Positions 5,982 to 11,962 of a stretch of DNA of 64,000 nucleotides are shown one piece after another. The stretch lies in contig NZ_CP011272.1 in NCBI RefSeq assembly GCF_001610875.1, positions 4,321,988 through 4,385,987 on the forward strand, in the 5' to 3' direction. This DNA comes from Pirellula sp. SH-Sr6A (lineage in GTDB: Bacteria > Planctomycetota > Planctomycetia > Pirellulales > Pirellulaceae). Under the pieces are notes generated by a model. The model made no database searches and was not told where the DNA came from. It was given only the letters and a program-made list of their open reading frames with translations. The position numbers and the translations under genes were made by a program. Within the stretch, counting starts at the first letter, position 1. The number at the start of each line of letters is the position of its first letter.

Positions 5982-6467
5982 TCAAGGCTGAGGTTTTCGC
6001 GGCGGAGCGAACTTGATCCGTTCCACCAACCGAGTCACATTATCTCCCTGCTTTTGACCGGTCACGGCTGTGATCGCTTGGACGACGTAAACGTATCGAA
6101 GGCTATAATCAAGGTCGATTTCAACCTCGGGCCCCTCTTCGGGGCTAGGTGGGGCAATTCCCCCGGTCAGTTGGAGGATGAACTCACGCAGCTTTCCGAA
6201 ATCGGATCCGAAGGATTGTTGATCATTGATAACAATATCCGCAAGTTCCCCATCGGCGTTGGCTCGCAGTCTTAGTTTGATCGGAATGCTCGTGTTGTCG
6301 GGAGAACCCGAACCGCCCCCCAGGGGCATCCGGATGTTAAAGTCACCTTCTTGTGCAACGATCTTGAAGGTCATAATGAAGAAGATGAGAAGCAAGAAAA
6401 TCACGTCGATCATGGACGTGAGCTGCAATTCCACCTTCTCGTTGGAGCGTCTGCCTCGAAATTTCAT
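5982..6467 (-). CDS. ExbD/TolR-type biopolymer transport protein (second copy)
   Basis: A 161-residue single-pass inner-membrane protein. The order is a basic N-terminus, one helix (TSMIDVIFLLLIFFIMTF) containing the conserved proton-path Asp21, then a periplasmic domain. In ExbB/ExbD and TolQ/TolR machines this Asp carries protons that drive an envelope partner. It is the last gene of a five-gene minus-strand unit and starts 5 bp after the stop of the first exbD copy, so the two are surely co-translated. The two copies share the MKF...TSMID start and Asp21 but diverge in the periplasmic part, suggesting a heteromer rather than a simple duplicate. The periplasmic part has a Gly/Pro-rich stretch and an acidic loop (SPEEGPEVEIDLD). 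Confidence 0.9.
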   Translation of the reverse strand: MKFRGRRSNEKVELQLTSMIDVIFLLLIFFIMTFKIVAQEGDFNIRMPLGGGSGSPDNTSIPIKLRLRANADGELADIVINDQQSFGSDFGKLREFILQLTGGIAPPSPEEGPEVEIDLDYSLRYVYVVQAITAVTGQKQGDNVTRLVERIKFAPPRKPQP

Positions 6468-6472
6468 GATGC

Positions 6473-6910
6473 TCAGTCTTGCTCCTTGACCCGCAGGGTG
6501 AACTGTTCAAAACCAAGCTCTTGACATCGTTTGATCAAATCTTGGAGGACACCACCGGGAGTGCTTTGATCCGCTCGGATGATCAGGTTGGCTGTCTTTG
6601 CCGATTCGCCATTCCCCTCGAGTACCGTGATCTCGGTGCGGAGCAGAGGCGCGAGCGACTCCACCGTCGCGGTATTGGAACCCATGTAGACGGCGGAATT
6701 CGCACCTAAGTGGATATAGATTGAATTCTTCAGGGGTGCGTCAGCTGGTTTTGCAAGCTCGCTGGTGGGGAGCTTGATTTTGTCATTCTGATCGTCTTGG
6801 GAAAAGTTGATCAGCACCATGAAAAAGATAATGAGCTGAAAGACCATGTCGATCATGGACGTCATATCCATTTCGGCCGCTTTCGCCTCGAATCGCTGTT
6901 TGAATTTCAT
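6473..6910 (-). CDS. ExbD/TolR-type biopolymer transport protein (first copy)
   Basis: A 145-residue protein with the ExbD layout: short cytoplasmic N-terminus, one membrane helix (TSMIDMVFQLIIFFMVLI) with the conserved Asp21, and a periplasmic alpha/beta domain containing ADQSTPGGVLQDLIKRCQELG, typical of TolR/ExbD. It should form a proton-driven motor with the ExbB-type protein encoded 64 bp upstream. The downstream exbD copy starts 5 bp after this stop. No TonB or TolA gene accompanies the cluster, so the partner that receives the energy is not evident from the neighbours, unless it is one of the two secreted TPR proteins upstream in the operon. Confidence 0.9.
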   Translation of the reverse strand: MKFKQRFEAKAAEMDMTSMIDMVFQLIIFFMVLINFSQDDQNDKIKLPTSELAKPADAPLKNSIYIHLGANSAVYMGSNTATVESLAPLLRTEITVLEGNGESAKTANLIIRADQSTPGGVLQDLIKRCQELGFEQFTLRVKEQD

Positions 6911-6974
6911 GTCTTGCCCTACTTGCTCACGACCGACCGTTCGATGCTCCCAACCGTTCTCAACATGGCGGCCG

Positions 6975-7721
6975 TTACTTCACAAAGGGCATAAACTTTT
7001 CAAGCAGGTCTTCCGATTGGACGCCGGCAAGGAGCGTGTTGCGCTGCACTCGATTTCGGAGGATGTTGTAAACGGTGATCGCGGGAATTGCCAACAAAAG
7101 TCCCACGAGCGTCGTGTAGAGGGCTTGCTCGATCCCACCCGCCAATTCATTGGGTTTGGGGGTTTGGGCGCTCGCAGCAATTTTTCCGAACGACGTCACC
7201 ATCCCTTGCACGGTCCCGAGCAGTCCCACCATGGGGGCGATGTTTCCAATGAGGGCCAGATAGCCTAGCAGATGCTCCAGCTTCATGATCTCCGCTTCGC
7301 CGATGATCTGCATGGCTTCGTAGGCTTCTTCCTTTCCTTTTTGCAATTTCCCCAACCCTGCGGTCAGAACTTGTCCAAGGAAACTGTCGTCGGCTTGCAC
7401 CAAGTCGACGGCGGCCTGAGCGTTCTTCTCTGCCAAGCTGGCTTCGATGCCTTGGACCAAGTCATCGGGAATGAAATTGCTCTTTTGTACTGCGAGGATG
7501 GCTCGGACCACCAACGCAACCAAGATGATCGACATGATCAAAAAGGTGATGGCGTACGAGGCACCGAGGGCCACCCACGTCTTAACGAGCATGTTCTGCT
7601 GAGCGGGAGCTGCAGGTTCCTGAGCATAGAGGGCTCCCGTCATCAGGAACCAACTCACGGCGCATGGCAAAGTGATGCGTGCCCAGGCTGCGAAACTCGA
7701 ACGGAAGGAAGCAAAACGCAT
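6975..7721 (-). CDS. MotA/TolQ/ExbB-type proton channel protein
   Basis: A 248-residue inner-membrane protein with three predicted helices after an N-terminal signal-like segment ending around LYAQEPAAPAQ. The signature GNIAPMVGLLGTVQGMVTSF, the helix 2 hallmark of TolQ/ExbB, is clear, and a third helix is seen at LYTTLVGLLLAIPAITVYNIL. The extra cleavable-looking N-terminus before helix 1 is common in ExbB of planctomycetes and Bacteroidetes. The start chosen is the ATG at 7721, which has GGAG seven bases upstream; the TTG four codons earlier is less likely. It is the third gene of the TPR-TPR-ExbB-ExbD-ExbD unit and should form the ring in which the ExbD proteins sit. Confidence 0.92.
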   Translation of the reverse strand: MRFASFRSSFAAWARITLPCAVSWFLMTGALYAQEPAAPAQQNMLVKTWVALGASYAITFLIMSIILVALVVRAILAVQKSNFIPDDLVQGIEASLAEKNAQAAVDLVQADDSFLGQVLTAGLGKLQKGKEEAYEAMQIIGEAEIMKLEHLLGYLALIGNIAPMVGLLGTVQGMVTSFGKIAASAQTPKPNELAGGIEQALYTTLVGLLLAIPAITVYNILRNRVQRNTLLAGVQSEDLLEKFMPFVK

Positions 7722-7786
7722 GAAAGTCTCCAAGACTACCGACTAGGAAAACGGTGACGAGATGGATGGAGGATCAACCCTCAAAG

Positions 7787-8860
7787 TTACTTTTTGGCCC
7801 ACGAGGAATTCGGGTACAGCTTGACCAATTCGGATTTGGCATCGGCTGCACGAAGGGGTTCCCCCAGTTTGTTCCAGAGCACCGATAAATTGTACAGTGC
7901 TTCGGCATGGGCATCGGCTTGGGTGGAGTAAAGCAAGTGGGTTTTTAGGAAGGAAAGGATCGCTTCTTGATGGTTATTCTGGCTTGCATAGATTGCCCCC
8001 AGGCTATTGAACAAGGCGGCAAATAATTCGGCATCCGAGGAATCTCCGTCATCGACCATTTTTTCTAGCGAAGCAACTGCGTCCTTCCCTTTCCCCTGCG
8101 CGGCGTCGCATTGGATCAATCCTATTGCGGCCATCTTCTGAACCTTGAGCATCGCGGCATCCGAGACACTCGCTTGTGTCACTGCTGCCAACTTGCTGCG
8201 GGCTTCGTCGACCTCCCCTTGGAGAAGCAATGCTTTACCTTGCAGGTATCCCCCTCTCAATTTGAGCTCGGGGAAAGGAGCACCGGCGACAGCACCATAG
8301 TATCGAGAGGCTTGGTTAGGCACTCCCAGAGCGATAGCCAAATTACCTAGAGTTTCGGACGCGGCATAAAAGTTCGGGGAACTCGGATAGGTTTTCGCCC
8401 AGTCCAAAAGCAACTTGGTGGCGTTCACCAAATCCCCCTTGCCGCGCATGGCTTGGGCTGCAGCGAGATAAGCTTTGTAAAAAGCGAAGTCCTCTTTCAT
8501 GGCATCGGTTTTCAAAGCCGAAGCTGCCACGTCGGCAATTTCTGTTTCCGCTTGATCGAATTGGCCTTGAACAATACTGTCCTTCGCTCGCGAAAGCGTC
8601 TGGGGTTCCCCATCGTAAACGACCCGTTCGACGTCGATGGTATCAAACGATTGCGTCGTTCCGCGATTGGACTCCAACACGATCTTATCCCGTGTTCGCT
8701 CGGTGATGCGTCCCGTAGCCGCAGCGCCACCTTTAGTAGGGAAGACGCGGTCTCGATCTTGCGCCGTAGCGCTCGATACTGAAACCAATACGATAGCGAG
8801 CGAGGTCCAAATCGTTCGGCCGGAGAGGGGTATCGCACGATGGATCAATGAAGAAAACAT
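7787..8860 (-). CDS. Secreted TPR-repeat protein
   Basis: A 357-residue protein with a signal peptide (hydrophobic TSLAIVLVSVSSATAQ, cleavage after ATAQ). A short beta-rich segment follows at about residues 40-85 (GRITERTRDKIVLES), and helical TPR-type repeats run from about residue 95 to the end. The repeats are recognisable by alternating Ala/Gly/Leu spacing, as in LFNSLGAIYASQNNHQEAILSFLK. The protein probably acts in the periplasm as a scaffold. It lies between the larger TPR protein and the exbB gene with gaps of about 65 bp on each side, and all five genes read the same way. That context suggests it is a structural partner of the proton-driven complex. I know no precise family name for it. 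Confidence 0.75.
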   Translation of the reverse strand: MFSSLIHRAIPLSGRTIWTSLAIVLVSVSSATAQDRDRVFPTKGGAAATGRITERTRDKIVLESNRGTTQSFDTIDVERVVYDGEPQTLSRAKDSIVQGQFDQAETEIADVAASALKTDAMKEDFAFYKAYLAAAQAMRGKGDLVNATKLLLDWAKTYPSSPNFYAASETLGNLAIALGVPNQASRYYGAVAGAPFPELKLRGGYLQGKALLLQGEVDEARSKLAAVTQASVSDAAMLKVQKMAAIGLIQCDAAQGKGKDAVASLEKMVDDGDSSDAELFAALFNSLGAIYASQNNHQEAILSFLKTHLLYSTQADAHAEALYNLSVLWNKLGEPLRAADAKSELVKLYPNSSWAKK

Positions 8861-8926
8861 AACTTGGTTTGTCGCAATGGGTAAGTTGGATTGATGGCAG
8901 CGTGTGAGCTGTGGGTCAGTAAATCG

Positions 8927-11900
8927 CTATCGATTCAAATCCTGCTGAAGTTCCGCTTCCAGTCGTTCGAATTTCGATTTGAACTCGGGAGTTCCAAAGT
9001 TGGGGTGGAGAACTTTGGTTTGACGAATCACGGTCATGGCTCGGTTGAGTTCCTTCTTGCGGGCCTCTGGATCGGTCTCCAGCAAACCGCTTGCGCGCTG
9101 GCAAGTCGCAATGTTGAAACGGGCTTCGAAGTAGATGTCGCGGAAACTATCCTCCTTGACGCGTGATGCGGTGAGTTGCGCGATTCGATTCCAACCCCAA
9201 ATCGCATTGGCTCCCTTGTCGTTCGGTTCGGTCCCCGCCCAAGCTTTGTAGAGCAAATCTTTATCGCGATTGCCACCCCACGCCTGCAGATTCTTAGCGG
9301 CCGCAATCTGAAACGTCACATTCATCGGTGTCTGCTTCAGGACATCGACAAAGATCTTGTGCGCCTCTTCGTACTTTCCTGCGCCGGCACGAGCCATTGC
9401 GATCCGCATTTGAAACTCTTCCGGCTTGCGATTGGCCGCCGCAATTTCTTCTGCGGTTTTCGAGGCGATCTTACTGTAGGCTTGGTCGGCAATCTCCATC
9501 AGCTCTTTCGATTGGACGGCGAGCCCGGGGACTTTTTGCAAGTTGCTAGCCAAAACGAAAACAGAACTGCCTGCTGAATCGAGAACGCTGATGTCGGATG
9601 TGAGCGCAACAAGCTGCTGCACCAACACACCTAAGGCTCCTCCGAGTCGAGCCTGATCCTCCAAGCTGCTAGTTTGTGAAACCTTGGTCGTGATCGAGTA
9701 GGCCAAATTTCGCAGAGCGTTGGTCAACAAGGTGTCGTCGGCGCCCGCCAAGGCCTTCATTCGGTCGACTGTTTCCGTCAATTGCTGCGTATCGAGTGGT
9801 TTGGCATTTGGCAGTCCTGCAGCTTGCACCATTGCTTGCAAACGGAGTTTGTAGGATTCCAGCTTATCTTTGGCTTCCAGCTTGTCGTTCGTCTCCATCA
9901 AGACCAACGTTCCCTTTTGAGGATCGTTGAGTATTTGATTGGCTTCGTCGATGCGATCGGCCGCGAGATAGATCGATGCAAGAGCATTGGCGCCGTGGAT
10001 CGAGACGTTATCGGCTTTGTTGGAAGAAAGGTTTTTCCAAGCTCCCTGAAGAAGGGATTCGGCTTTCGCGAGAAGCGCTTTGTCTTCGGCGGTTTCCTCC
10101 GTCTTGTTGGTTCGATGTTCTGCAGCCCGCAACTGGTAGTCGCGCCAAAGCATTTGCCCCAATAGACTCGCACCGCCGATCGAATTGCCGCCGGACATTT
10201 CGACATAACGCTCCGCGTCCTCGTATTTTTTCTCGCGAATGGATAGCGTGACCAGGACATCGACCGCATTGCGACTCGCATCCGTGCCTGGCGCGATTTC
10301 TAGCATGAGTTTGGCGATTGTTTCCAAAGTCGGAATCAAGCCGGCTTGTTGATCTTTCGGTGTTGCGTCGATGAGTCGGGAGAGGGAGACCAATGCAAAT
10401 TCGCCGCACTGGATGGCCTTGTCCGTATGGCGATCTGCCTGCAGGACGGCTTGCGAAACTGCCAACGCTTCCCAGAGCTTATCTGTCCGAAGGTATAGAT
10501 AGGCCAAAAAGTACTTGCTCTCAAGCAACGCTTCGCGTCCATCGGCCTCGCGAAAGAGCTCGAGCGATCGACGATAAAGTGCAATGGCTTGTTCGCGATC
10601 CCGGGCGACATCGGCCGCAAGCTTGTCGATGTCGTCAGCGGAAGCATTTTGTTGTTTCAGGATGGGAAGGGTTCGTTCACTGTTTTCGGCTCGCTCCAAT
10701 CGAATCTTCGCTGCAGCCGTCGCTTCTTGAAAGCTCTTGGTCTCGGGTAAGCTCTCGTCGTTCGCGGGCGCTGTGTCGAACCCCAATTCGGACAGCCCCT
10801 TCGCCGCACGTTCCTTGTGAGGCCCGTTGATTTTCAAAAGGTTTTGATAGGTGTCGCGGGCTGCTTTGCGATTATTGCGGAAAAGGTTTCCGTCCTTACC
10901 CTCGGTAAGCGTTTTTCCATACGCGAGACGCGCATCGGCCAACGCCAATTGCAGTTCGATACCCTGTGGTTCGCTTCGTTCCTGGGCGGAAAGGGATTTG
11001 GCCAGCTCGTCTCCCAACCCAATGGCTGCCTCGTATTTGGGAGGTTGTTGGGCCAACTCCAATCGCACGAGTCCCGCCGTCGCCTCGATTTTCCAAGTGC
11101 GAAAGATCCCTGCTTCATTGATTTCGGTGACACGGGTGAAGCTCTCCCTCGCTTCCTTCCACTTGCCCAGCTTCGCTTGGACTTGACCACGATAAAGCAA
11201 ACAGAGAATACGTCGCCCGGCTTCTCGTGAGGATGTCGTTGTCTTTTCAATAATCTCACTGAGTTTGGCTTCGGATTTTTCAAGCCATTGCTTCCAATCG
11301 GTTGACCCATCTGGGTAGGTCTGGCTCAAGAACTCAAGTGTCTTGGCGTGCAAGATCTCGGCTTGCCGGTACTCTTCTTGGTAGCGGTCTCGAAGAGCCT
11401 TGTCCTCCGCCGTTTGAGCTCGGTTACCAGCTAGGTTTTGCAGGATGGGCTTGAGCTCTTCGTTGATGCTCACATACAGGGCTATTGCATCGCTGTAACC
11501 TTTGCGGGCTTTCTCCTTCAATTCCTCGGACTTGGCGGAGTTCTCCGGTTTTTTGCTTTCTTGGATAGCAAACGCAGCCCGATCGCGTAGCAAATCCCCC
11601 AATCGAGTTTGGGCTTCGCTTTTGCGAGGATGAGAACCGGCTGACGCGAGAAAGCTACGGAGTTGCTCCTCGAGCTGCCTCATCCTCGCCTCGATTTGAT
11701 CGGGCTTTTGCAATGTGAGAAGCGAATCCTGTAGGAGACCTATCTTCTCCAAAGGCAAATCCGCTCGCAGACTCTCCGGGATCCGATTCCGCTTTTCCGC
11801 GATCTCGATGTATTGGATGCCGATATCAAAGAGTTGCTCGTCCCGCAGCCGCTCCAAGAATCGCTTCGCCGGTTCCTCCGCGACCATCGAAGGTGCGGAT

Positions 11901-11962
11901 GCGGCTCCGCAAGCGAATGCAAGGCAGGTCATCCAACCGGATCGATTCGAAAAAATAGACAT
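8927..11962 (-). CDS. Large secreted TPR/helical-repeat protein
   Basis: A 1011-residue protein with a signal peptide (LAFACGAASAPSMVAEEP). Almost the whole mature part is helical and charged, with irregular TPR-like repeats; examples are GKWKEARESFTRVTEINEAG and KYEEAHKIFVDVLKQTPMN. It is presumably periplasmic and is first in the operon with the second TPR protein, ExbB and the two ExbDs. No catalytic motif, transmembrane segment after the signal, or OmpA/peptidoglycan-binding motif was seen. Large TPR proteins next to ExbB/ExbD genes recur in planctomycetes to my knowledge, but their role is not established. The inference is that it couples the motor to an outer-membrane or cell-surface process. 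Confidence 0.75.
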   Translation of the reverse strand: MSIFSNRSGWMTCLAFACGAASAPSMVAEEPAKRFLERLRDEQLFDIGIQYIEIAEKRNRIPESLRADLPLEKIGLLQDSLLTLQKPDQIEARMRQLEEQLRSFLASAGSHPRKSEAQTRLGDLLRDRAAFAIQESKKPENSAKSEELKEKARKGYSDAIALYVSINEELKPILQNLAGNRAQTAEDKALRDRYQEEYRQAEILHAKTLEFLSQTYPDGSTDWKQWLEKSEAKLSEIIEKTTTSSREAGRRILCLLYRGQVQAKLGKWKEARESFTRVTEINEAGIFRTWKIEATAGLVRLELAQQPPKYEAAIGLGDELAKSLSAQERSEPQGIELQLALADARLAYGKTLTEGKDGNLFRNNRKAARDTYQNLLKINGPHKERAAKGLSELGFDTAPANDESLPETKSFQEATAAAKIRLERAENSERTLPILKQQNASADDIDKLAADVARDREQAIALYRRSLELFREADGREALLESKYFLAYLYLRTDKLWEALAVSQAVLQADRHTDKAIQCGEFALVSLSRLIDATPKDQQAGLIPTLETIAKLMLEIAPGTDASRNAVDVLVTLSIREKKYEDAERYVEMSGGNSIGGASLLGQMLWRDYQLRAAEHRTNKTEETAEDKALLAKAESLLQGAWKNLSSNKADNVSIHGANALASIYLAADRIDEANQILNDPQKGTLVLMETNDKLEAKDKLESYKLRLQAMVQAAGLPNAKPLDTQQLTETVDRMKALAGADDTLLTNALRNLAYSITTKVSQTSSLEDQARLGGALGVLVQQLVALTSDISVLDSAGSSVFVLASNLQKVPGLAVQSKELMEIADQAYSKIASKTAEEIAAANRKPEEFQMRIAMARAGAGKYEEAHKIFVDVLKQTPMNVTFQIAAAKNLQAWGGNRDKDLLYKAWAGTEPNDKGANAIWGWNRIAQLTASRVKEDSFRDIYFEARFNIATCQRASGLLETDPEARKKELNRAMTVIRQTKVLHPNFGTPEFKSKFERLEAELQQDLNR

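Follow-up and report, generated by a model that had tools for sequence, protein, structure and literature searches.

Which partner does a bacterial proton motor move when its operon encodes, besides ExbB, two unlike ExbDs and two tetratricopeptide repeat (TPR) proteins? The question is raised by Pirellula sp. SH-Sr6A, a planctomycete with a genome of 6.53 Mb on a single contig (NZ_CP011272.1), in which five such genes lie at 5982-11962 of the stretch analysed here, 64,000 nucleotides from position 4,321,988 to 4,385,987 of the forward strand, which we call the window. On balance, and with considerable reserve, we favour the answer that a proton motor with two unlike ExbDs is coupled via periplasmic TPR solenoids to an outer-membrane secretin, with contact and function both presumed. 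In many families of other planctomycete classes the five-gene set lies beside secretins, a linkage that points to a machine, so far undescribed, in which the proton gradient would drive a channel of this kind. Judged from sequences, a proton motor appears to be tied to secretins across the phylum Planctomycetota, to which the window's own class, the Planctomycetia, belongs.

The five genes and their order in the class

Open reading frame (ORF) calls and Pfam matches place five genes on the minus strand in the order TPR-L, TPR-S, ExbB, ExbD1 and ExbD2, given here by position with lengths in amino acids (aa):

5982..6467, minus strand: ExbD2, 161 aa, single-helix proton-carrier subunit with Asp21 (Pfam ExbD, 48.5 bits)
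6473..6910, minus strand: ExbD1, 145 aa, single-helix proton-carrier subunit with Asp21 (Pfam ExbD, 81.1 bits)
6975..7733, minus strand: ExbB, 252 aa from TTG, proton-motor ring subunit (Pfam MotA_ExbB, 99.8 bits, cut-off 22.9)
7787..8860, minus strand: TPR-S, 357 aa, N-terminal hydrophobic stretch and small five-stranded domain, then a TPR solenoid (Pfam TPR_16, 35.4 bits)
8927..11962, minus strand: TPR-L, 1011 aa, helical TPR-like solenoid with a signal-like N-terminal start and no C-terminal membrane helix

The intergenic gaps are 5, 64, 53 and 66 bp, and the 53 bp gap becomes 65 bp if ExbB starts, as it may, at the ATG at 7721 (248 aa) instead of the TTG at 7733. In its 252-aa reading ExbB has three hydrophobic helices, the first at residues 64-82, and it matches TolQ and ExbB of known structure. 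TPR-S lies above the TPR_16 cut-off of 32.7 bits; for TPR-L the single TPR models of Pfam all stay under their cut-offs (best TPR_2, 26.1 of 27). The AlphaFold2 model of TPR-S (mean predicted local distance difference test score, pLDDT, 91.9) has strands at 37-81 and helices from 87 to the C-terminus, and that of TPR-L (mean pLDDT 89.7) is an all-helical solenoid with helix almost throughout. An earlier note on this DNA, made from its letters, had described a five-gene minus-strand set in which both ExbDs carry Asp21 and two proteins are built of helical repeats, and ORFs, Pfam and predicted folds bear this description out.

A search of the class with ExbB as query found a match in each of the 118 genomes searched, from which we took 60 stretches: the best match per genome for 57 genomes in rank order (to G237), then G197, G154 and G155 from lower ranks, with G244 included among these picks as far as ranks permitted. 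By a strict rule, TPR-L, TPR-S, ExbB, ExbD and ExbD stand in this order on one strand in 51 of the 60 loci. Among the exceptions, one locus is cut by a contig end (L074), one has all five genes with one overlapping ORF call (L075), two lack a recognised TPR-S (L112, L122) and five lack any recognised TPR gene (L111, L118, L119, L120, L121). The two TPR proteins travel with the motor genes. Recurrence of the order in planctomycete relatives, which the earlier note had looked to, is thereby established for the class, and since 51 of 60 loci keep it, the objection that the arrangement might not be conserved falls away.

No TonB or TolB domain found in the genome

At E <= 1, Pfam searches of the whole genome gave no match to TonB_C, none to the TonB-dependent receptor barrel and none to TolB_N, and two matches to the OmpA domain, one of which lies inside a MotB-like gene, so that a Pal may well be present. 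The absence of TonB and TolB, read by the earlier note from the operon's surroundings, thus extends through TonB_C and TolB_N to the genome as a whole, and we dropped a TonB- or Tol-type system after the searches for TonB_C, the barrel and TolB_N. From the same missing neighbours the note had proposed that one or both TPR proteins may be the driven part. That proposal is partly supported, in that both proteins travel with the motor; as the whole partner they were replaced when secretins came to light beside four loci of other classes (L150-L153), and the likely partner at the far end is a secretin, not TPR proteins alone.

Secretins flank the operon in other classes

Two of these four loci (L151 and L153) carry PF00263 secretins with TPR N-termini on either side of the five genes, and a profile built from them found secretins on both sides in L150 and on one side in L152. 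With the ExbB of L151 as query, 284 of 294 genomes of the phylum were matched, and 80 loci from 58 families were taken: the top 20, 20 from further down the list and 40 chosen chiefly to add a single locus for each family still missing. Of the 80 loci, 63 (41 families) are accompanied by one or more secretins on the strand of the operon, and 44 (26 families) have secretins on both sides. Where at least 8 kb upstream and at least 4.5 kb downstream were available (50 loci), 47 had an upstream secretin, 39 had both and 3 had none. Two TPR-type genes upstream together with at least two ExbDs were found in 69 of the 80; the order varies in L266, L292 and L295, which have two upstream secretin ORFs, and several loci have three or four ExbDs.

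Pfam confirmed PF00263 in all nine linked secretins scanned, each of which has at least a weak TPR match. The upstream and downstream secretins are largely separate in their tree, with 33 of 36 downstream ones in a single clade (support 0.995), and a rough lipoprotein-signal pattern occurs in 39 of the 54 upstream proteins and in 33 of the 48 downstream ones. An ORF of 218 residues that closes L134 hit the secretin profiles over an N-terminal part alone and was left uncounted.

It could be argued that these secretins are components of type IV pili or type II secretion systems, with the motor genes as mere neighbours that have no mechanical coupling to them, and indeed the secretins weakly match the MshL, PilQ, GspD and Amuc_1098 family models. 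The NCBIfam secretin cut-offs, reached by none of the seven secretins scanned, do not decide the matter, because the GspD-like secretin of the Pirellula genome itself also misses its cut-off (320.7 of 351.35). We scanned 131 neighbouring proteins from 31 loci, which matched 80 families; the 25 most frequent of these include neither an ATPase nor a platform family of type II secretion or pili. The linkage to secretins recurs in 41 families, and we regard the pilus or type II explanation as very improbable. Peptide ATP-binding cassette (ABC) importers lie near some loci (11 ABC_tran and 3 SBP_bac_5 matches in the same scan). As a separate observation, haloacid dehalogenase (HAD)-type hydrolases are the commonest neighbours of the secretin-flanked operons (flanks of L217-L253), with 22 of the 131 proteins.

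Kinship of the ExbBs, and an unlinked secretin in Pirellula

A tree built from 219 ExbBs groups the class of the window in a clade of 76 rows (support 0.999), and the ExbBs of this class share a 161-row clade (support 0.911) with 66 ExbBs from secretin-linked loci, a grouping that the choice of rows favours because the second ExbB set was found with a secretin-linked query. Three ExbB paralogues of the same Pirellula genome (L123, L124 and L125) fall outside this clade; four long-branch rows (L126_10206, L149_3653, L204_8962 and L210_1068) and identical duplicates were left out of the tree. Profiles of TPR-L and TPR-S from the window's class also match their counterparts in the secretin-linked loci L250, L252 and L255, with scores of 96-124 bits. 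The closest named relative by ExbB search is a Pirellula metagenome bin (74% identity); the ExbBs of the window and of this bin (L132) share a long common branch (0.71) and deviate from the class at otherwise conserved sites.

The Pirellula genome holds three secretin-domain genes. One of them (L258; 1194 aa, at ~3.82 Mb, which is ~0.5 Mb away from the operon) matches the profile of the upstream secretins along almost all of its length, TPR and ring parts included, at 384 bits, while the other two reach 48.5 and 34.7 bits; by Pfam, one of these has repeated Secretin_N domains and the other a pilus-type N-terminus.

Several observations weigh against a secretin-coupled motor in the window's class. 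The window contains no match to the secretin profiles, and the first secretin profile found none beside the 60 class loci, so that for the window operon the link rests on relatives and one unlinked gene. The phylum-wide sample was drawn from matches to an ExbB already standing between secretins, with the query's own locus (L217) among the 80, and 17 of the 80 lack a secretin, in several cases owing to a contig end. TPR profiles match loosely, and median identity between the window and its class relatives is 44% for ExbB, 37% for ExbD1, 43% for ExbD2, 27% for TPR-S and only 19% for TPR-L. TPR proteins of 491 residues in several class loci matched the secretin search weakly (26-44 bits) and were not counted as secretins.

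These points leave some room for a self-contained motor with a periplasmic TPR scaffold, which in this class would work without a secretin and serve envelope upkeep in place of Tol-Pal, secretins elsewhere being an add-on. The missing secretins near the operon and the genome's lack of TolB_N and TonB_C would both fit; however, Pirellula retains a complete secretin gene of the kind that is linked to the operon elsewhere, and the operon's ExbB falls in the same clade as the secretin-linked ExbBs. We consider such a motor possible but rather unlikely.

Two unlike ExbDs

The earlier note had read Asp21 in both ExbDs of the window, and in the class alignment the residue is present in 52 of 52 rows for each, as it is in all 259 ExbD rows of a wider alignment. 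The ExbD tree (midpoint-rooted) collects all 52 ExbD2 rows in a single 87-row clade (support 0.81) from which ExbD1 is absent; its other side (support 0.41) contains further ExbDs besides ExbD1, and monophyly of ExbD1 is not supported. The ExbD2 clade includes the second ExbD of the secretin-flanked loci L150-L153, and the ExbD pair is therefore older than the window's class. A pair so conserved would make it directly testable whether such motors run with unlike partners.

TPR proteins as probable adaptors

Because TPR-bearing secretins flank the operon in other classes and the Pirellula genome has an unlinked one, the TPR proteins seem better described as adaptors that would join the motor to the outer-membrane ring. 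Structure comparison of the two models named no function, since many unrelated TPR proteins match: SprE of type IX secretion (8gl8_I) is among the matches with Z scores of 17.0 and 17.5 without ranking higher than unrelated rows, and PflA (9hmf_K of the PflA/PflB scaffold, ranks 11 and 21) stands beneath many unrelated TPR proteins. As a query TPR-L is a poor bait (13 of 149 phylum genomes matched, and no relative in a collection of named genomes), and ExbB is the better one.

In all 25 loci of one related family (L086-L099, L102-L109, L113-L115 and others) TPR-L ends in a C-terminal membrane helix and, behind it, a basic tail rich in proline and serine. The helix is found in none of the 26 other class loci, none of 62 TPR-L genes of secretin-type loci and not in the TPR-L of the window. 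This gain indicates that TPR-L can be tied to the inner membrane. It counts in favour of the self-contained motor, as does the precedent of PflA and PflB, two TPR proteins reported to scaffold stators (PMC12222027, in the part available to us); the same precedent also speaks for the secretin-coupled reading.

Flanking genes and the vWA proteins

In the window, truB and ftsK lie below the operon, and larC, dapA and an AIM24-type gene above it. No match to truB, larC, ftsK or dapA was found in the 60 class stretches (at most ~9 kb per side, some shorter, and searched without a positive control), and the five-gene block therefore appears to be kept while its surroundings change.

Part of these surroundings suggests another transducer. 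For motors of the Planctomycetes-Verrucomicrobia-Chlamydiae (PVC) group it has been proposed in print that TolQ and paired TolRs, together with a TPR gene, act on a membrane-tethered vWA protein, and by analogy a vWA protein could transmit the force here. A vWA-like gene indeed stands on the operon's strand in 16 of the 60 class loci, in 14 of them directly upstream of TPR-L (L069, L070, L073, L077-L080, L082-L085, L100, L101 and L110). Yet with these queries 44 of the 60 have none, and the window operon is flanked directly by truB and larC, with no adjoining vWA gene. The 14 genes also lie upstream, not downstream, and the one pair that we scanned, an extracytoplasmic function (ECF) sigma factor followed by a vWA protein (L069), has the vWA gene behind the sigma factor gene, which fits regulation. 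To a vWA transducer we accordingly assign little probability, and we return to a secretin as the partner that we favour.

A candidate mechanism

In the secretin-coupled reading, the operon would supply those parts of a trans-envelope machine, driven by protons, that lie in the inner membrane and the periplasm. A ring of ExbB would surround a pair of ExbD helices, either a mixed pair of ExbD1 and ExbD2 or a pair of each of the two, a stoichiometry that we infer. Protons passing Asp21 would turn or shift this pair, and the periplasmic ends of the ExbDs would act on TPR-S and TPR-L, which would reach towards the outer membrane. There the two proteins may engage the TPR-bearing N-terminal part of a secretin, whose gene in the window's class is unlinked, so that proton flow would open, gate or work a large outer-membrane channel.

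Direction and substrate of transport are likewise conjectural, and import is weakly favoured over export because no type II or pilus ATPase is among the 25 top neighbour families, ABC importers lie near some loci and dextran uptake in planctomycetes is CCCP-sensitive. The published text, as far as available to us, reports this sensitivity to CCCP (carbonyl cyanide m-chlorophenylhydrazone) together with crateriform, press-stud-like complexes of the envelope, and it also reports gene deletion in Planctopirus limnophila (PMC5394234). It is tempting, though we hold it to be unlikely, to see in the operon a new trans-envelope machine in which an ExbD1-ExbD2 pair in an ExbB ring works a secretin via TPR adaptors and imports macromolecules into the periplasm, possibly as the basis of the crateriform complexes and of the CCCP-sensitive dextran uptake (PMC5394234).

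Other ExbB/ExbD loci

The same-looking order, TPR-TPR-ExbB-ExbD-ExbD, occurs in eight loci of Kiritimatiellota and Lentisphaerota (L169, L170, L176, L178, L182, L183, L188 and L211, with L182 and L188 titled uncultured bacterium only). We rejected these as the same operon and do not count them, because their ExbBs form a separate clade in a quick tree. A protein with weak squalene-hopene-cyclase-like (toroid) matches follows the five genes in Lentisphaerota (L170) and Kiritimatiellota (L176), and one stands by ExbB/ExbD genes in Akkermansiaceae (L177), together with a WD40-like propeller. In the Pirellula genome itself, ExbB/ExbD genes lie by proteins with such weak matches at two places (L123:6537-12760 and L131:8953-11849). 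At a third (L130:5893-11892), two ExbDs without ExbB have an LptF/LptG gene on one side and an AIM24 gene on the other, and an autotransporter comes next; at a fourth (L126:2917-10800) ExbB and two ExbDs adjoin a pyrroloquinoline quinone (PQQ)-propeller protein and a peptide-binding protein.

Comparison with known systems

Literature searches, limited to open-licence papers, listed none that we recognised as a description of an ExbB/ExbD-TPR-secretin block, and the main text of an essential-gene paper on Planctopirus limnophila contains no ExbB, TolQ, MotA, tetratricopeptide or proton channel (PMC10632474). The novelty that the earlier note had suggested is weakened: judging by the parts of the sources at hand, a TPR/TolQ/paired-TolR layout in the PVC group (PMC12204202) and a motor of one TolQ with two TolRs, AglRQS (PMC3169522), are published. 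For the secretin link these searches brought up no description.

The nearest of these layouts is the TPR-TolQ-TolR-TolR-vWA cluster of the PVC group, which likewise groups one gene of the TolQ/ExbB type and two unlike ones of the TolR/ExbD type with a TPR gene. It differs in having a single TPR gene and a vWA protein as transducer, and the portion of the paper available to us does not mention secretins (PMC12204202). The window operon, in contrast, has two TPR genes and no vWA gene in the window, and its relatives in other classes stand beside secretins.

AglRQS of Myxococcus also combines a TolQ-type protein with two of the TolR type, each of which has the Asp in its helix (PMC3169522), and TPR proteins occur in the wider gliding machinery; whether AglQ/AglS rings contain mixed pairs is called an open question (PMC9389320). 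Its Glt gliding genes lie in other clusters, and the excerpts available to us describe no link to a secretin (PMC3169522, PMC9389320). PflA and PflB of Campylobacter flagella, as reported in the section we could consult, resemble TPR-S and TPR-L in being two periplasmic TPR proteins beside 5:2 proton motors, which they scaffold; they differ in being flagellar and associated with MotA/MotB, and that section names no ExbB, ExbD or secretin in the block (PMC12222027).

With TonB-ExbB-ExbD and Tol-Pal the operon has the ExbB and ExbD families in common, and it differs in its two unlike ExbDs and in a genome that lacks matches to TonB_C, the receptor barrel and TolB_N. The secretins of type II secretion and type IV pili, which form a ring in the outer membrane, share the PF00263 domain with the operon-linked ones; the latter are set apart by TPR-bearing N-termini, by linkage to ExbB/ExbD and by the lack of a type II or pilus ATPase among their 25 most frequent neighbour families. 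Secretins are parts of ATP-driven secretion and pilus machines, and if our reading is true, an ExbB/ExbD proton motor that works a secretin would energise a large channel of the outer membrane in a new manner.

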